This document shows, one piece after another, positions 39,172 to 52,944 of a DNA stretch of 64,000 nucleotides. Both the position numbers and the translations under genes were made by a program. Within the stretch, counting starts at the first letter, position 1. Each line of letters starts with the position of its first letter. The stretch comes from Fusobacteria bacterium ZRK30 (GTDB lineage: Bacteria > Fusobacteriota > Fusobacteriia > Fusobacteriales > Fusobacteriaceae): assembly GCA_024628785.1 (NCBI GenBank), contig CP102405.1, forward strand, positions 434,001 to 498,000, in the 5' to 3' direction. Under the pieces are notes generated by a model. That model was not told the DNA's origin. It did no database searches and worked only from the letters and a program-made list of their open reading frames with translations.

Positions 39172-39193
39172 ATGTATACGTTCAATAATAAAC
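39172..39193 (+). repeat. Iteron upstream of ispE
   Basis: ATGTATACGTT-CAATAATAAAC, a full 22-base match to the origin-region iteron. It is the leftmost copy that I found. Confidence 0.8.
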
Positions 39194-40448: not shown

Positions 40449-40470
40449 ATGTATATGCTCAATAATAAAG
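40449..40470 (+). repeat. Iteron upstream of mazG
   Basis: ATGTATATGCT-CAATAATAAAG. It lies 32 bases upstream of the mazG start on the opposite strand and matches the consensus at all conserved positions. Confidence 0.8.
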
Positions 40471-41447: not shown

Positions 41448-44408
41448 TTATTTATAATCTTCAAAGAATTCTTTTATACTATCTATCTCAATAGCTCCCT
41501 CTTTTTGGAGGTATCTTATCTTTTTAGACAGGATTAATTCTTGGATTTTTTCAATATTTATTTTGTTCTCTATAAATTTTATCCTGTATGATCCACCCTC
41601 TAATTTTATACTTTGAATATGATTTTTCTGAGCTATAATCTTTATAGTTAGATATTCAAACAGGTCTTCTACAACTTTTGGTAATCGCCCAAATCTGTCT
41701 TTTATTTCACATTTCATCTCCTCTAATTCAGAGATTGTATCTATAGTAACTAATCTTCTATATACCACTATTTTTTCTACTTCCTCTATATATTCACTAG
41801 GTATATATCCGTGAATCCCTATCTCTAGGTCGATATCCTCTATTATAGGTTCTTTTCCCTTTATCTTTTTTATCTCTTCATCCAGCATCTTAAGATACAT
41901 ATCATAACCAAACATTTTTAATGCTCCGTGTTGTTTTTCACCTAAAATTTCCCCGGCTCCCCTTATCTTCATGTCTTCCAAAGATAACTGAAACCCTGCT
42001 CCCAGATCTTTTATCTCTTTTATTGATTCTCTTTTTTGTTTTCCTTTTTCCGTTCCGCCCTTTAAAGAATCTACCAGGAGATAACAATAAGCTCGCTTGC
42101 TGCTTCTTCCTACCCTTCCACGGAGCTGATACACCTGGGATAATCCTAATTTATCAAAATTTTCTATGAGGATAGTGTTGGCATTTTCTATATCTATACC
42201 ATTTTCTATAATTGTCGTTGTAAGAAGTACATCTATCTCCCCGTTTTCAAAAGAATTTATCTTATACTTTATCTCATTTGAAGGCATCTGACCATGGATA
42301 TAATCTATTACAACATATTCGGGAATTATCTCTTTTAACTCCTTTAACTTAACTTTCATGCCCTTAACTGAATTATATAGGTAAAAAACCTGCCCCTCTC
42401 TGGCAACCTCTTTCATTATGGCATTTTTTATATCACCTTTATTTTTTTCTATAATATAAGTTTCTACTGGTATTCTATTGGTTGGAGGAGTCTGAATTAT
42501 AGATATATCCCTTATTCCCAAAAGAGCTAAATTTAATGTTCTAGGAATTGGGGTTGCTGTTAATGTCAACATATCCACATTGATCCTCATGGTTTTTAGA
42601 TGTTCCTTTGCCTTTACTCCAAATTTTTGCTCCTCATCTATTATAACTAACCCCAGATCTTTAAACTTTATATCTTTAGACAACAATCTATGGGTTCCTA
42701 TAATAAGGTCTATAACACCATCTTTTATTTTTTTTACTACCTCGGTTTGTTCTTTGGGAGTTTTCAATCTTGACAGCAGTTCCAATTCCAATGGGAAGTT
42801 TTGAAACCTTTCCTTAAATCTTTCAAAATGCTGGGTAGCCAAAACTGTAGTAGGAGCTAATATTACAACTTGCTTTCCATCCATAAGAGCTTTAAATGCC
42901 GCTCTCATAGCTACCTCTGTTTTTCCATATCCAACATCCCCACAGACTATCCTGTCCATGACAGATGGCGATTCCATATCCTCTTTTACATCTAATATAG
43001 CCTTTAGCTGATCCTTGGTCTCATTATATGGAAACCCTTCCTCAAATTCCTCCTGCCAAATAGTATCCTTGGTAAATGAATAACCTACGTTCATAGCTCT
43101 TTTAGCCTGTATTTCCAGAAGTTCTATTGCAAATTTTTCTATCTCTTTTTTTATTTTTTCCTGCCGTTTTCTAAACCCTCTTCTACCTAGTCTAAATATG
43201 TCAGGAACTACCCCTGGTTCAGATATATAACGCTCTATTTTATTTAGACTAGCTATAGGTACAAAAAGTTTATCTTCGTCTGCATATTTTATCTTTAAAT
43301 AGTCTGCACCATTTATATCTTCTACTCCCAAATAAATTCCTACACCATAAGTTTCATGAATTATATAATCATTTGGTAGTATCTGATCTATTTTTTTAAA
43401 TCTTATTCCATCTGCTCTTTTCTCACTTCTCTTTACCCTGATCCCCTTTAATTCCCTGTCTGTCAGGATAAGATCATCTTTATATTTAAATCCCTCATAG
43501 TGGGGATTTCTATGGATTTGTATAGATGTTCCGTCAAATATTTCAGTATATCTTCTTTTTTCCTCTGTCAAAATCGTTATATTTTTTTTTCGAGATAATT
43601 TTTTTATATAATCATAATTTTTATAATTTTCTATCTCCTCATCTTTAAACCGCTGTAGCTCTATCTTTTCCGATATCTTCTTTATCTTAGAATATTCCAG
43701 CCGGATCTCTTGCTCATCCTGTCTTTTATCTAAAATATATTCCTCTACCTTATAATTCAATATTTCTTCATTCTCTAAATAGACTTTTCTTTTGTCGTTC
43801 TTCAACCTATCCAGCAGATCTAAAAAAGTATAATTTTCATCTTTATTTTTGTTTATATACATTTGAATTTTATTTATTTTCTCCAGTGATCTCTGGGTTT
43901 CTGCATTGAATACACGTATTTCCTCTAAAAGATCATCGAAAAATTCCAAACGAATAGGGTGCTTTCCATCAAAAGCAAATATATCTAAGATATCTCCTCT
44001 AAGGCTGTATTCGCCTCTTTTTTCAACCAGATAATTTTTTTTAAATCCACTTTTTTCCAATTTTTCTATTATATTTTTTAATTTATATTCTTTTCCCACA
44101 CAAAATTCTAACAGTTCAGAATTTATAAAATATTTTTTAAAGATACTCTCAATAGATATCAATATCTTTGAATTACCTAACTTTAATTTTTCCAACAACT
44201 CAAAGGTTATACAGTCGAATTCCTCCTCTGTATAATTATAATTTTCTATCTTTAAAACATCTATATCTTCCTTTAGTGTGAAATAGTAGTCGATTATATT
44301 TTTATTAGAAGAGGATATATATATTACCTGATCCTTTTCAGATTCCAAAAAATAGGGAACTCCTCCCCTATATAGTTTCCCATTATTTATTGTTGATTTA
44401 AACTTCAT
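41448..44408 (-). CDS. mfd: Transcription-repair coupling factor Mfd
   Basis: A 986-residue ATP-driven translocase that removes stalled RNA polymerase and recruits UvrA. Visible are the N-terminal UvrB-like module (LRGDILDIFAFDGKHPIRLEFFDD), the RNAP-interacting CarD-like domain (DYIIHETYGVGIYLGVE), Walker A GDVGYGKTEVA, DEEQ, LTATPIPRTL, and motif VI QLRGRVGRS. I place the start at 44408 with AAAGGGG upstream. An earlier ATG at 44444 would begin with residues encoded by an iteron. A second iteron lies inside the gene (43841-43862). Confidence 0.95.
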   Translation of the reverse strand: MKFKSTINNGKLYRGGVPYFLESEKDQVIYISSSNKNIIDYYFTLKEDIDVLKIENYNYTEEEFDCITFELLEKLKLGNSKILISIESIFKKYFINSELLEFCVGKEYKLKNIIEKLEKSGFKKNYLVEKRGEYSLRGDILDIFAFDGKHPIRLEFFDDLLEEIRVFNAETQRSLEKINKIQMYINKNKDENYTFLDLLDRLKNDKRKVYLENEEILNYKVEEYILDKRQDEQEIRLEYSKIKKISEKIELQRFKDEEIENYKNYDYIKKLSRKKNITILTEEKRRYTEIFDGTSIQIHRNPHYEGFKYKDDLILTDRELKGIRVKRSEKRADGIRFKKIDQILPNDYIIHETYGVGIYLGVEDINGADYLKIKYADEDKLFVPIASLNKIERYISEPGVVPDIFRLGRRGFRKRQEKIKKEIEKFAIELLEIQAKRAMNVGYSFTKDTIWQEEFEEGFPYNETKDQLKAILDVKEDMESPSVMDRIVCGDVGYGKTEVAMRAAFKALMDGKQVVILAPTTVLATQHFERFKERFQNFPLELELLSRLKTPKEQTEVVKKIKDGVIDLIIGTHRLLSKDIKFKDLGLVIIDEEQKFGVKAKEHLKTMRINVDMLTLTATPIPRTLNLALLGIRDISIIQTPPTNRIPVETYIIEKNKGDIKNAIMKEVAREGQVFYLYNSVKGMKVKLKELKEIIPEYVVIDYIHGQMPSNEIKYKINSFENGEIDVLLTTTIIENGIDIENANTILIENFDKLGLSQVYQLRGRVGRSSKRAYCYLLVDSLKGGTEKGKQKRESIKEIKDLGAGFQLSLEDMKIRGAGEILGEKQHGALKMFGYDMYLKMLDEEIKKIKGKEPIIEDIDLEIGIHGYIPSEYIEEVEKIVVYRRLVTIDTISELEEMKCEIKDRFGRLPKVVEDLFEYLTIKIIAQKNHIQSIKLEGGSYRIKFIENKINIEKIQELILSKKIRYLQKEGAIEIDSIKEFFEDYK
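43841..43862 (-). repeat. Iteron inside mfd
   Basis: On the minus strand ATGTATATAAA-CAAAAATAAAG, in frame as MYINKNKD within Mfd. It matches all conserved positions despite being coding sequence. Confidence 0.75.
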
Positions 44409-44416
44409 AAATACCC

Positions 44417-44820
44417 CTTTATTTTTGTTAGTATACATTTCCACCTTATATTTTTCAATGGTTCACTCATAGGATGTTTTTTCATCTTTATTTATATATA
44501 AAGAGTTTATCATAGATCTTATATGAAAAATACAATAAACTTTTTTTGGGTTTAATTTTTAGTAAAAAGAAATTTTATAATATTATATCATTTATGTATA
44601 CACTCAATAATAAAAATATTTTACTAAATAAAAAAAGAAAATTTCTAAACTTTATTTTTATCCATATACATTTCTAGATTAAGAAATTCAATATCATTTA
44701 TGTATACTGACAAAAATAAACATATTCCTTTCATTTTTTTTTATATCTCTTTAAAATAATTTATTCATAATCTTCATGAGGAAAAAAATAACCTATATAT
44801 GTATACACTCAATAATAAAG
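44417..44820. repeat. Iteron cluster between mfd and the rep gene
   Basis: This 420-base gap holds five 22-base iterons: 44417-44438 (minus), 44594-44615 (plus), 44650-44671 (minus, one divergent core), 44700-44721 (plus) and 44799-44820 (plus). All fit ATGTATAY, three variable bases, CAAWAATAAAR, except that the third copy has TAA for CAA. The first lies directly before the mfd RBS. The rest of the gap is AT-rich with no gene. TTATCCATA within the 44650 copy is one base from a DnaA box. Confidence 0.85.
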
Positions 44821-44866: not shown

Positions 44867-46738
44867 TTATTTCCCATCTTTTAAAGCTATCCCTATATAT
44901 TTCTTCAATGTTATAAAATATACTCTTTTGGATACCTTTCTTAAATTATATAAAAATTCTTTTGGTATATCCTCATATTGAGAACATAATTCCAGTGCTT
45001 TTTCTTCTATTATCAATTTTTGAAATTCATCTAAACCATGATAATCCTGCATAATATCATGTTTTGGAAGATCTTCAATAACATCTTTTATATTTGTTAT
45101 CTCCGGATTCTTCAGATGTTTTCTTGCCTTCTTTAGTTGTTTCTTGCTTTTTAAAGGTTTTTCCCTGGTTACCTGATTAAATAATGTTAGATTATTTTTA
45201 TTAGATTTTCTAGCATTTCTATCCATCTTTCTTAAATTTCTCAATATTCCATTGATATATTGAACTAAAGTAGATTTTATCTCTGAGTTAAGACGTTTAT
45301 ATAAAAGGTTTAATATATCAATAGCTACCTCTTCCCCATCTTCCCTTATAATCTTTTTAAATTTATTATCTACCCTCTTATTCCAAGCTCTAGAAACAAA
45401 TATATTTCTTTTACACTTGATTATCTTACTTTGAAGTTCCTCTGAGAAATCTTTTAATCTTTCTTTTACATCTTCAGATAGGTTAATTTCATTAGTTTTA
45501 TTCTTATCAACCTTTCCAGTAACTATCTCAGCATCTATTATCTCATTATCGTCTCTAATTTCTATTTCTTTTATTTTTTCTTTTATTTTTTCCTTAGTTA
45601 TAAGTGATTTTTCTTTCTTAGCTTTCTTGGCAGCATTTACTGCGTCCCATTTACCTTTATATTCAACTTGTTTTTCTTCTCCATTTAAATAACTAGATAT
45701 ATGACAAGTTCCATCTTTATCCTGATTAAATCTATAGTTTATATAATAACTATCCTCTTCGGCAACAAATTCAGAATTAAAATACTCCATATATCCCAAT
45801 TCTTCTAAAAGTAAAAAGGCTTTCTCAATTCTCTTTAAAACCTGCTTTACCCTGCTTAATACATAGACCCTTTTCTCACCAGTTTTATTTACTCTTTCAG
45901 TTTCCTGTTCCATTTTTAACGGAATTATAGCAGCTAAAGTTCTAATATTTATAGAATCCTCCTGCTTAGAATACCTTATTTTACTTATATATTTATAGAT
46001 CCTTGCAGCAATAGGATCCTTTTCCATTATTTCAATCAAAGCTTTAGAATTATATTTTATATATCTTTTGTCTTTAATTTTATTTCTAATATTTTTATTT
46101 AAAGTTACTTTATAATATACCTTTGTTCCAACTTTAAGTTTTTGATAGGTTAACAGTTTAAATTCTTCATCTTCAAATTGATAATTTCCCAGCTTACTAT
46201 GGTTAGATACTTCAAACTGGTATTCAGTACTTTTTAAATTTTTAAGAGCCTGAGCTACCTTGGTATAATAATTTCTATTCATCTTATTTCCTAAAAAATT
46301 AACTATAAAGTCTGAAATTTCAAACTTTATGTACTCATCTGTATCGTTGGTCTCCTTTTTTAATTCATAGAGAGATATCAGATATGTATAAATTTTCTCT
46401 TCAAAAATAGATGGCTGATAGATCTTGTCTTCTGAATTTTTTGCAACTAATGTACAATACATTGTTACTCCTAAATCTTCAAAAGAGTATTTAAAGTTTA
46501 TTTTTTTATTTTGTTTTTGAGGAGTAAAAAATGGAAAAACTATCATTTCTATTGGTATATTAATTATATTTTCTTTTAAATCTAAAAAATTTCCAGTTTC
46601 TTTAATAACAACTTCTCGAACTTCTATCTCAGGAAGTTCACTCATTTTTATATCAACTTTAGTCAGGTCAGTCAACAATGATCCAGTTTTATTTAAATTA
46701 AATTTATCTATTAAACCTGCATTTGCTTCCTTTGACAT
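44867..46738 (-). CDS. Plasmid-type replication initiator (Rep-like) protein
   Basis: A 623-residue protein that I recognise as Rep-like by its tandem winged-helix layout, not by a named family signature. Residues 60-360 contain FEEKIYTYLISLYELKKE, NYYTKVAQALKNLKSTEYQF and IEIMEKDPIAARIYKYISKI with ISKIRYSKQEDSINIRTLAAIIP, as in initiators that bind iterons. A Lys/Glu-rich linker (about 365-425) leads to a C-terminal helical region (430-623) of unknown role. It is divergent from rpmH, where dnaA normally sits, and is flanked by iteron clusters. GGAGGAG precedes the ATG. DnaA-type AAA+ motifs are absent. Function as chromosomal initiator is inference. Confidence 0.75.
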   Translation of the reverse strand: MSKEANAGLIDKFNLNKTGSLLTDLTKVDIKMSELPEIEVREVVIKETGNFLDLKENIINIPIEMIVFPFFTPQKQNKKINFKYSFEDLGVTMYCTLVAKNSEDKIYQPSIFEEKIYTYLISLYELKKETNDTDEYIKFEISDFIVNFLGNKMNRNYYTKVAQALKNLKSTEYQFEVSNHSKLGNYQFEDEEFKLLTYQKLKVGTKVYYKVTLNKNIRNKIKDKRYIKYNSKALIEIMEKDPIAARIYKYISKIRYSKQEDSINIRTLAAIIPLKMEQETERVNKTGEKRVYVLSRVKQVLKRIEKAFLLLEELGYMEYFNSEFVAEEDSYYINYRFNQDKDGTCHISSYLNGEEKQVEYKGKWDAVNAAKKAKKEKSLITKEKIKEKIKEIEIRDDNEIIDAEIVTGKVDKNKTNEINLSEDVKERLKDFSEELQSKIIKCKRNIFVSRAWNKRVDNKFKKIIREDGEEVAIDILNLLYKRLNSEIKSTLVQYINGILRNLRKMDRNARKSNKNNLTLFNQVTREKPLKSKKQLKKARKHLKNPEITNIKDVIEDLPKHDIMQDYHGLDEFQKLIIEEKALELCSQYEDIPKEFLYNLRKVSKRVYFITLKKYIGIALKDGK

Positions 46739-47045
46739 AACTCCTCCATTAATTTTTGTCCATTCACAATAATAATCCCAGTGTCATTCATAGTATCATC
46801 AAAATTAAATAAATTCAATCTTTATTTTTGAAAGTATACATATAATCGGTTATATTTTTTAGGAATATAACTCATTTTACTTAACTTTTTTTATTTAATA
46901 TAATCATCATAAAAAATCACTTTATTAAACTTTTAAAAAATAATAATAAATTATGTATACGAACATTAATAATATATATATACTAATAAATCCTAATTAT
47001 CTTAGGGTTATAAAAAATAAGTATTGAAAAACCTAGTTTTAAACT

Positions 47046-47275
47046 ATGTCCATACACAATAATAATTACATTATATTGAATTTATTGTATTTATTGACCC
47101 TTAAACCATCTCTGATATCTAAACCCTTAAAAACTAAGGTATTCTCATTATGTATATCTACAATAATAATACATCTATCTCTAAAACAACGTATTTATTG
47201 AGGTCATTTTATATCTAAAAATAATAACCCTTTAAAATAAAGGCTTTCATTAAGTGTATATCTACAATAATAATA
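47046..47275 (+). repeat. Three helically phased iterons in ~104-bp direct repeats
   Basis: The CAATAATAAT cores begin at 47057, 47161 and 47265, an exact 104-base period (close to ten helical turns). The 5' halves are ATGTCCATACA, ATGTATATCTA and GTGTATATCTA. Sequence between the second and third copies is also similar (TATTTATTGA, ATATCTAAA, AACCCTT, AAGG..TTTC.CATTA), so the unit was duplicated as a block. Confidence 0.85.
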
Positions 47276-47414
47276 AATATTTACTTTTTTCTTTTCTAGC
47301 CCTTATAAAATATAGATTTTCTTTATAACAAATATTGGCTTTACTTTTACTACATCTTACAAAAAACAAATACTCTTTTTGGTTACTTTTATAAAAAACT
47401 TATTTAAAATTATC

Positions 47415-47443
47415 TTGACAAAATATAACTTATATATTAGAAT
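47415..47443 (+). promoter_or_regulatory. rpmH promoter
   Basis: TTGACA (47415-47420), 17 bases, TAGAAT (47438-47443), 50 bases before the rpmH ATG, at the right end of the origin gap. Confidence 0.75.
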
Positions 47444-47493
47444 AATAAACTGAAATGACAATTTTTTTAACGTAACAGGAGGTGTAATCAAAA

Positions 47494-47634
47494 ATGGCAA
47501 GCAAGAGAACTTTTCAACCAAATAAAAGAAAAAGAAAAAAAGAACACGGGTTCAGAAAAAGAATGGCAACTAAAGCAGGAAGATCTGTTTTAAAGAGAAG
47601 AAGAGCTAAAGGTAGAACGAAATTATCAGCATAA
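47494..47634 (+). CDS. rpmH: 50S ribosomal protein L34
   Basis: A 46-residue basic protein, too short for most ORF cut-offs. It begins [20 protein letters not shown] and ends [10 protein letters not shown], the classic L34 pattern. The RBS is CAGGAGGTG. It is the first gene rightward from the origin, as in most bacteria. A terminator separates it from rnpA, so downstream genes need read-through. Confidence 0.97.
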
Positions 47635-50993: not shown

Positions 50994-51015
50994 ATGTATA
51001 CGAACAAAAATAAAG
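50994..51015 (+). repeat. Iteron just upstream of mnmG
   Basis: ATGTATACGAA-CAAAAATAAAG. It is open to the mnmG frame and would encode MYTNKNK, so gene callers may extend mnmG into it. Confidence 0.85.
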
Positions 51016-52922: not shown

Positions 52923-52944
52923 ATGTATATAGACAAAAATAAAG
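52923..52944 (+). repeat. Iteron downstream of mnmG
   Basis: ATGTATATAGA-CAAAAATAAAG, the rightmost clear copy, between mnmG and the fluoride riboswitch. Confidence 0.85.

Follow-up and report, generated by a model that had tools for sequence, protein, structure and literature searches.

The stretch of DNA analysed here, 64,000 nucleotides of Fusobacteria bacterium ZRK30 (the window), corresponds to positions 434,001 to 498,000 of a 2,367,115-bp contig in a 3.6-Mb genome of five contigs, and contains in dnaA's place a gene for a 623-residue Rep-like protein, rep. Named orthologues place the DNA in or beside Psychrilyobacter, family Fusobacteriaceae. We are highly confident that this locus is the oriC of the Psychrilyobacter primary chromosome, and that it is served by a tandem winged-helix Rep of plasmid descent that was captured once, followed by the loss of dnaA. 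In the Fusobacteriaceae as a whole, the main chromosome is most likely replicated by a plasmid system that was captured. A fuller version of this reading is only slightly less probable: a family-wide, one-time and in-place swap of DnaA-oriC for a plasmid-type Rep, with box spacings of about ten helical turns, a phased ACA-rich element, a C-terminal module that recruits the replisome and a field of boxes that titrates Rep.

The rep-rpmH locus and the Rep protein

The locus consists of three parts:

44867-46738, minus strand: rep, putative chromosomal initiator, 623 residues (open reading frame call, Pfam, AlphaFold2/Foldseek, ratio of non-synonymous to synonymous substitution rates (dN/dS))
46739-47493, no strand: rep-rpmH gap, proposed oriC, 755 bp, 20% GC (GC-skew switch; blocks conserved among congeners)
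47494-47634, plus strand: rpmH, which opens the divergent block rpmH-rnpA-yidD-yidC-jag-mnmE-mnmG (gene order)

A preliminary description, made from the sequence alone, had recognised the usual oriC position by the rpmH-to-mnmG block and the strand switch, and a Rep-like initiator in the divergent gene that stands in dnaA's place. Both observations held: the gene order was confirmed, the GC skew within the window changes from negative to positive at the rep-rpmH gap, and the rep product scores just under the cut-off of the Pfam family RPA and matches the folds of RctB, RepE and Pi. Sampled over the entire contig (20 kb every 60 kb), the GC skew is negative as far as 440 kb and positive between 480 kb and about 1.35 Mb, after which it is mixed and, from 1.62 Mb, negative again; the skew minimum, and the sole clear minus-to-plus switch of the 2.37-Mb contig, is at the rep-rpmH locus (478.9-480.7 kb), and the reverse switch lies at a distance of about half a chromosome. 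Chromosome I of Ilyobacter polytropus (2,046,464 bp) gives the same skew picture, with rep at position 24. The gene neighbourhood and the GC-skew minimum, both hallmarks of a DnaA-oriC, are found at rep, and no dnaA was found elsewhere in the genome.

The contig is the 2.37-Mb main chromosome and not an integrated plasmid, which the preliminary description had still considered: its size, its GC skew and the recurrence of the locus in closed genomes rule out both an integrated plasmid and a misassembly. No plasmid backbone genes flank the chromosomal rep. The secondary replicons of the same genomes carry Rep paralogues of their own as initiators. NZ_CP084075.1 (L073, 2,108,235 bp), deposited as Fusobacterium vincentii 'plasmid pSB055A', contains the rpmH-mnmG block, rep, recF and gyrBA and is a chromosome; the plasmid label is perhaps due to its plasmid-like origin.

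The Rep protein has two winged-helix domains (residues ~80-213 and ~231-337), a linker and a C-terminal helical module (421-623). Residues 67-268 match RPA (PF10134) with an E-value of 4.7e-6 and 26.8 bits, the cut-off being 27 bits; this cut-off is exceeded by the orthologues of I. polytropus (29.0 bits) and F. vincentii (31.5 bits). Profile hidden Markov model searches with the window Rep gave no match to the DnaA domains (AAA+ ATPase and domain IV helix-turn-helix), NCBIfam and PHROGs returned nothing useful, no relatives were found in phages and no relative of solved structure was found by sequence search. An AlphaFold2 model was built from 30 homologues; its mean predicted local distance difference test score (pLDDT) is 67.6, with mostly 70-90 in the winged-helix domains. 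The seven best PDB matches of this model in Foldseek are RctB, RepE54 and a Pi-iteron complex, each with a probability of 1.00 (top match RctB 5tbf, E-value 5e-6; RctB 5ubf was also matched). The tandem winged helices of RepE/Pi/RctB-fold initiators are present in Rep by both the secondary-structure order of the model and Foldseek, and the DNA-binding half is predicted to have the fold of true iteron initiators. Between congeners, dN/dS of the chromosomal rep is 0.025-0.057: the gene is under strong purifying selection.

The C-terminal 200 residues are modelled as an all-helical module that has no fold match at E<0.1. The same module is found in RPA-type megaplasmid Reps and in Rep_3-type initiators of small plasmids of the same genome: L088 and L089 (contigs C4 and C5 of G000) have Rep_3-type DNA-binding halves joined to the C-terminal module of the chromosomal Rep. 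One module on differing DNA-binding halves indicates that it has been combined with different initiator types, and because it is retained while the DNA-binding half changes, it is a good candidate for the contact to the replisome.

Rep boxes and the ACA-rich element

The rep-rpmH gap contains six Rep boxes, followed by an ACA-rich element and the rpmH promoter:

46756-46776, plus strand: Rep box 1, situated between start codon and likely promoter of rep; proposed autoregulatory operator
46821-46841, minus strand: Rep box 2, inverted; conserved in 6/6 congeners
46953-46973, plus strand: Rep box 3 (array)
47046-47066, plus strand: Rep box 4 (array), 93 bp after box 3
47150-47170, plus strand: Rep box 5 (array), identical to the consensus and 104 bp after box 4
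47254-47274, plus strand: Rep box 6 (array), 104 bp after box 5
47351-47374, plus strand: ACA-rich element TACATCTTACAAAAAACAAATACT, 97 bp after the last box; proposed DNA-unwinding element or single-strand loading site
47415-47443, plus strand: rpmH promoter TTGACA-17-TAGAAT, downstream of the ACA-rich element

Boxes were searched for as sites with up to 3 mismatches to ATGTAYAYNNACAATAATAAT in the window, and with up to 2 mismatches to the 21-bp form in the gaps of the family. The window has 19 ATGTAYAYNNACAATAATAAT sites, while 0.32 were expected and 100 shuffles gave a maximum of 2; the whole 3.6-Mb genome has 20 sites with up to 2 mismatches, of which 14 lie no more than 6.5 kb from rep, and it has none of a reversed control pattern. 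Across 31 Fusobacteriaceae rep-rpmH gaps there are 185 boxes (1.95 expected), nearly all on one strand. Alignment of 128 sites gives the consensus TGTATAYnnnCAATAATA, whose core is preceded by an AAA at about 18 bp. Each Fusobacteriaceae genome has 2-22 copies of the strict core, mostly near the origin, and each of ten DnaA-bearing controls has 0-1. Repeated cognate sites beside the rep gene, a feature of iteron initiators, are therefore present. The preliminary description had called these repeats iterons: they are genuine repeats, but they are not close-packed like classic plasmid iterons, being 93-104 bp apart in the gap, with further copies downstream of rep and at distances of up to about 6 kb to both sides. 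A box 12-67 bp upstream of the rep start codon recurs in nearly all Fusobacteriaceae origins.

DnaA boxes show the reverse distribution. The window has a single TTATNCACA site, 33 kb from the origin, where 3.4 are expected, in agreement with the earlier impression that the gap has no obvious DnaA-box array. The Fusobacteriaceae gaps (24.2 kb) contain 89 strict Rep boxes and no DnaA box, and the gaps upstream of dnaA in relatives (11.6 kb) contain 28 DnaA boxes and no Rep box, indicating that the swap of initiators is mutual at the DNA level. The DnaA-box cluster of a DnaA-oriC is absent from the gaps of the Rep family.

The distances between neighbouring boxes in the 31 gaps fall into classes of 83-84, 91-96, 101-106 and 114-118 bp, in steps of about one helical turn around 105 bp, and these classes recur across genera with differing spacer sequence. 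When periodicity was tested on 29 spacings, taking a single representative of each genus or major branch, the 20,000 draws from a uniform or normal null included none with so strong a periodicity; the representatives are still related, and the figure is a guide. Given a spacing in helical turns, bound Reps would share one face of the DNA.

In most genera a counterpart of the ACA-rich element (TACATWWAACAWWATACAAAAAACAA..CAACTA) follows the last box at a distance of 74, 82-84 or 94-97 bp, again in helical steps; the Cetobacterium form of the ACA repeat is TACATATAACATTATACAAAAAACAAAAAACAACTA. From its position and composition, the element is likely the DNA-unwinding element. A scan of ACA density by itself was not significant in most single gaps, and the support for the element comes from its conserved sequence and distance. 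TTGACAAA, in the rpmH promoter, is found in 16 of the 17 gaps compared.

Further Rep boxes of the window are located outside the gap:

44594 (plus strand), 44651 (minus), 44700 (plus) and 44799 (plus), spanning 44594-44819: four boxes downstream of rep, in the rep-mfd gap
43842-43862 and 44418-44438, minus strand: two boxes, inside mfd and at the mfd start
39172-39192 and 40449-40469, plus strand: two outlying boxes, upstream of ispE and near the mazG start
50994-51014 and 52923-52943, plus strand: two boxes flanking mnmG

The boxes at 39172, 40449, 44418 and 50994 coincide with, or closely precede, the starts of ispE, mazG, mfd and mnmG, respectively, and Rep may also be a transcription regulator, like DnaA. 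In four genomes of the Fusobacterium group, two Rep boxes separated by 160-214 bp form a pair that is 34-60 kb distant from the origin, towards gyrA (G026 C1:1324886/1325100; G027 C1:3248545/3248757; G028 C1:3151297/3151507; G029 C1:35978/36140), possibly a remote site for titration or timing.

DnaA, Rep and the dnaA operon across the phylum

The phylum was surveyed with 98 genomes, 61 of Fusobacteriaceae (at least seven closed or single-contig) and 37 of other families. The DnaA C-terminal domain (Bac_DnaA_C) has no match at E<=1 in the genome of the window species, with the same search being positive in bacterial control genomes; it is found in 0/61 Fusobacteriaceae versus 36/37 genomes of sister families, and the one negative genome is 82% complete. 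Full-length DnaA (TIGR00362) scores at least 336 bits in 36 relatives and at most 65 bits in the 61 Fusobacteriaceae, where the matches are short DnaC/IstB-like ATPases; likewise, the PF00308 matches in the window genome are IstB-like open reading frames of 148-252 amino acids. On the results of the two models over the 98 genomes, a hidden dnaA elsewhere was rejected. IS21-type IstB copies are abundant in the window genome (G000), at nine places on the chromosome, the 1.04-Mb replicon and C5.

A counterpart of the window Rep is present in 59/61 Fusobacteriaceae genomes, and the 37 genomes of sister families have no chromosomal Rep. The sole Rep match outside the Fusobacteriaceae is on the Haliovirga abyssi plasmid pHIC, where it is followed by parA and parB.

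In DnaA-bearing relatives (G084 and the Haliovirga chromosome), the gene order is dnaA-yaaA-recF-dciA-remB-gyrB-gyrA. Ilyobacter, Propionigenium, F. vincentii, F. gastrosuis and others have rep-yaaA-recF-dciA-(remB)-gyrB-gyrA: rep heads the operon in dnaA's position in most Fusobacteriaceae genera, dciA is retained and rep is divergent from the rpmH-mnmG block throughout the family. In the window species the yaaA-recF-dciA-gyrBA block has been relocated 74 kb away, which is why the window alone lacks the order of the dnaA slot. With rep in dnaA's operon slot and beside the same rpmH block, replacement in place is the simplest history.

In a maximum-likelihood tree, a branch with 100/99 support separates 29 chromosomal Reps, as one clade, from the plasmid and megaplasmid Reps, a split that is recovered in 200/200 bootstrap trees. 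This tree leaves out the very divergent Rep_3-type plasmid Reps; a first tree that included them had long-branch artefacts, with the plasmid clade nested inside the chromosomal one. A 449-kb contig carries a second RPA-like Rep, divergent in sequence (L208, G041 C1:122200-123927), that groups beside the chromosomal clade; the contig is possibly a megaplasmid close to the donor lineage. A Cetobacterium contig has a decayed second rep with many stops and an intact box array (L225, G009 C6:11933-13734), adjoining an intact rep copy identical to the chromosomal one.

Proposed initiation, rival explanations and known systems

We infer that Rep binds and melts the origin, loads the helicase, controls its own gene and is titrated. 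The ancestor of the Fusobacteriaceae would have captured the plasmid Rep once, at the place of dnaA in the dnaA-yaaA-recF-dciA-gyrB-gyrA operon, and would then have lost dnaA. Rep would bind the 21-bp boxes of the rep-rpmH gap; with the boxes about 8-11 (mostly 9-10) helical turns apart, the bound Reps would lie on one DNA face and may wrap or bridge about 300-500 bp. The resulting strain would open the ACA-rich, AT-rich element, which takes the position of a next box, beside the rpmH promoter. Rep or its C-terminal module would then help to deliver DnaB, with DciA as the helicase operator. Through the box just upstream of rep, the protein may repress its own gene, and the boxes scattered over some kilobases may titrate Rep and set the frequency of initiation.

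Several observations weigh against this reading. Initiation by Rep is proposed from sequence comparison and predicted structure: the RPA score of the window Rep (26.8 bits) is just below the curated cut-off of 27, and the template modelling (TM) scores of the fold matches of the model are modest, 0.5-0.6 on target. The C-terminal module has no known fold match, and its part in helicase loading is a guess. The ACA-rich element is weak or was not found in six or seven of the 31 gaps, a few of which are truncated at the end of a contig, and the local ACA density is by itself not significant in the window. Finally, two draft genomes (G040 and G046, 93% and 70% complete) have no Rep match.

Rep could instead be a regulator bound at the origin, or a remnant, acting as transcription factor or copy-number regulator with initiation at the locus carried out by an unrecognised non-DnaA protein. 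The Rep boxes near the starts of ispE, mazG, mfd and mnmG would fit a regulator, as DnaA boxes serve the regulatory role of DnaA. We consider this very improbable, as Rep is predicted to have the fold of true iteron initiators, occupies dnaA's place in its own operon and has relatives that initiate every secondary replicon in the same genomes, and as the array and the adjacent AT-rich element are common to 31 origins. A chromosome that has no dedicated initiator and replicates by recombination or R-loops, with rep a plasmid integrated at the old oriC, is even harder to reconcile with the data. Free-living bacteria that lack dnaA do exist among cyanobacteria (PMC7198777), but these have irregular skew and multiple origins, while the skew here is two-sided with one minimum at rep; moreover, Rep is present in 59/61 genomes as one vertically inherited clade under strong purifying selection, with no plasmid backbone genes at its flanks.

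The least probable explanation, and one close to refuted, is a divergent dnaA that was missed because it was lost from assemblies or is too derived. It could draw on the Fusobacterium nucleatum genome paper of Karpathy et al. 2007 (PMC1924603), which describes the open reading frame in this place as one "with low identity to DnaA"; yet the open reading frame upstream of (yaaA-)recF-gyrB in the Fusobacterium genomes examined is Rep, with RPA and not DnaA domains. Two models were negative in all 61 genomes including the closed or single-contig ones, true DnaA proteins of the phylum score 336 bits even in the most divergent case, and 24 kb of origin gaps contain no DnaA box.

The preferred reading, initiation by a captured plasmid-type Rep, has a close parallel in RctB and oriCII of Vibrio chromosome II: a plasmid-like tandem winged-helix initiator on a replicon of chromosome size, with a site array beside the initiator gene. 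RctB drives a secondary chromosome, and its host cells retain DnaA for chromosome I. Here, in contrast, the replicon concerned is the primary chromosome, in a cell that has lost DnaA; site motif and spacing also differ, and no sequence relation between Rep and RctB was found. The iteron plasmids (RepE of F, Pi of R6K, TrfA of RK2; families RPA and Rep_3) share the fold of the DNA-binding half, direct repeats by rep, an AT-rich opening region and a likely autoregulatory site. Classic plasmid iterons are close-packed repeats of about 22 bp, whereas the Fusobacteriaceae boxes are 84-118 bp apart, conserved across the family and scattered over kilobases, and Rep has an extra C-terminal module and a role on a DnaA-less chromosome. 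Cooperativity between iterons is seen only when they are on the same helical face (PMC4980987).

With DnaA-oriC the locus shares its place, the divergent rpmH block, the downstream yaaA-recF-dciA-gyrB-gyrA, a single bidirectional origin by GC skew and an initiator gene beside its sites; initiator and sites are both unrelated, with no AAA+ ATPase, DnaA domain IV or DnaA boxes. According to Ohbayashi et al. 2020 (PMC7198777), no dnaA-less free-living bacteria were known before some cyanobacteria, which use multiple origins. Like these, the Fusobacteriaceae have genomes without dnaA; unlike these, which have irregular GC skew and no identified substitute, they have one origin and an identified substitute. 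A Synechococcus elongatus dnaA deletion that was rescued by an integrated plasmid origin (integrative suppression, as cited in PMC7198777) likewise has a plasmid replicon that drives a dnaA-less chromosome, but this was a laboratory rescue, while the Fusobacteriaceae case is natural, ancient, at oriC itself and fixed in the family. No report of a DnaA-less or Rep-using Fusobacterium was found in the open-access literature (subscription papers and preprints were outside the search). The plasmid-type replicon is of a known kind; a role on a primary chromosome was not found described in that literature.

To our knowledge, DnaA is treated as the universal initiator of bacterial chromosomes, and the dnaA-less cases we know of are symbionts, parasites and some cyanobacteria, with no identified substitute. 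If the reading is true, it would be the first natural case of a primary bacterial chromosome whose known initiator is something other than DnaA, in a family that includes Fusobacterium, a human oral and gut genus with genetic tools. It would become testable how an ATPase-based initiation switch is replaced and how once-per-cycle control works without DnaA, and also whether paralogues of one protein family run the replication of chromosome and megaplasmid in one cell. DnaA-based drugs or markers would be inapplicable to Fusobacterium, and databases that define origins by DnaA boxes would mislabel it.
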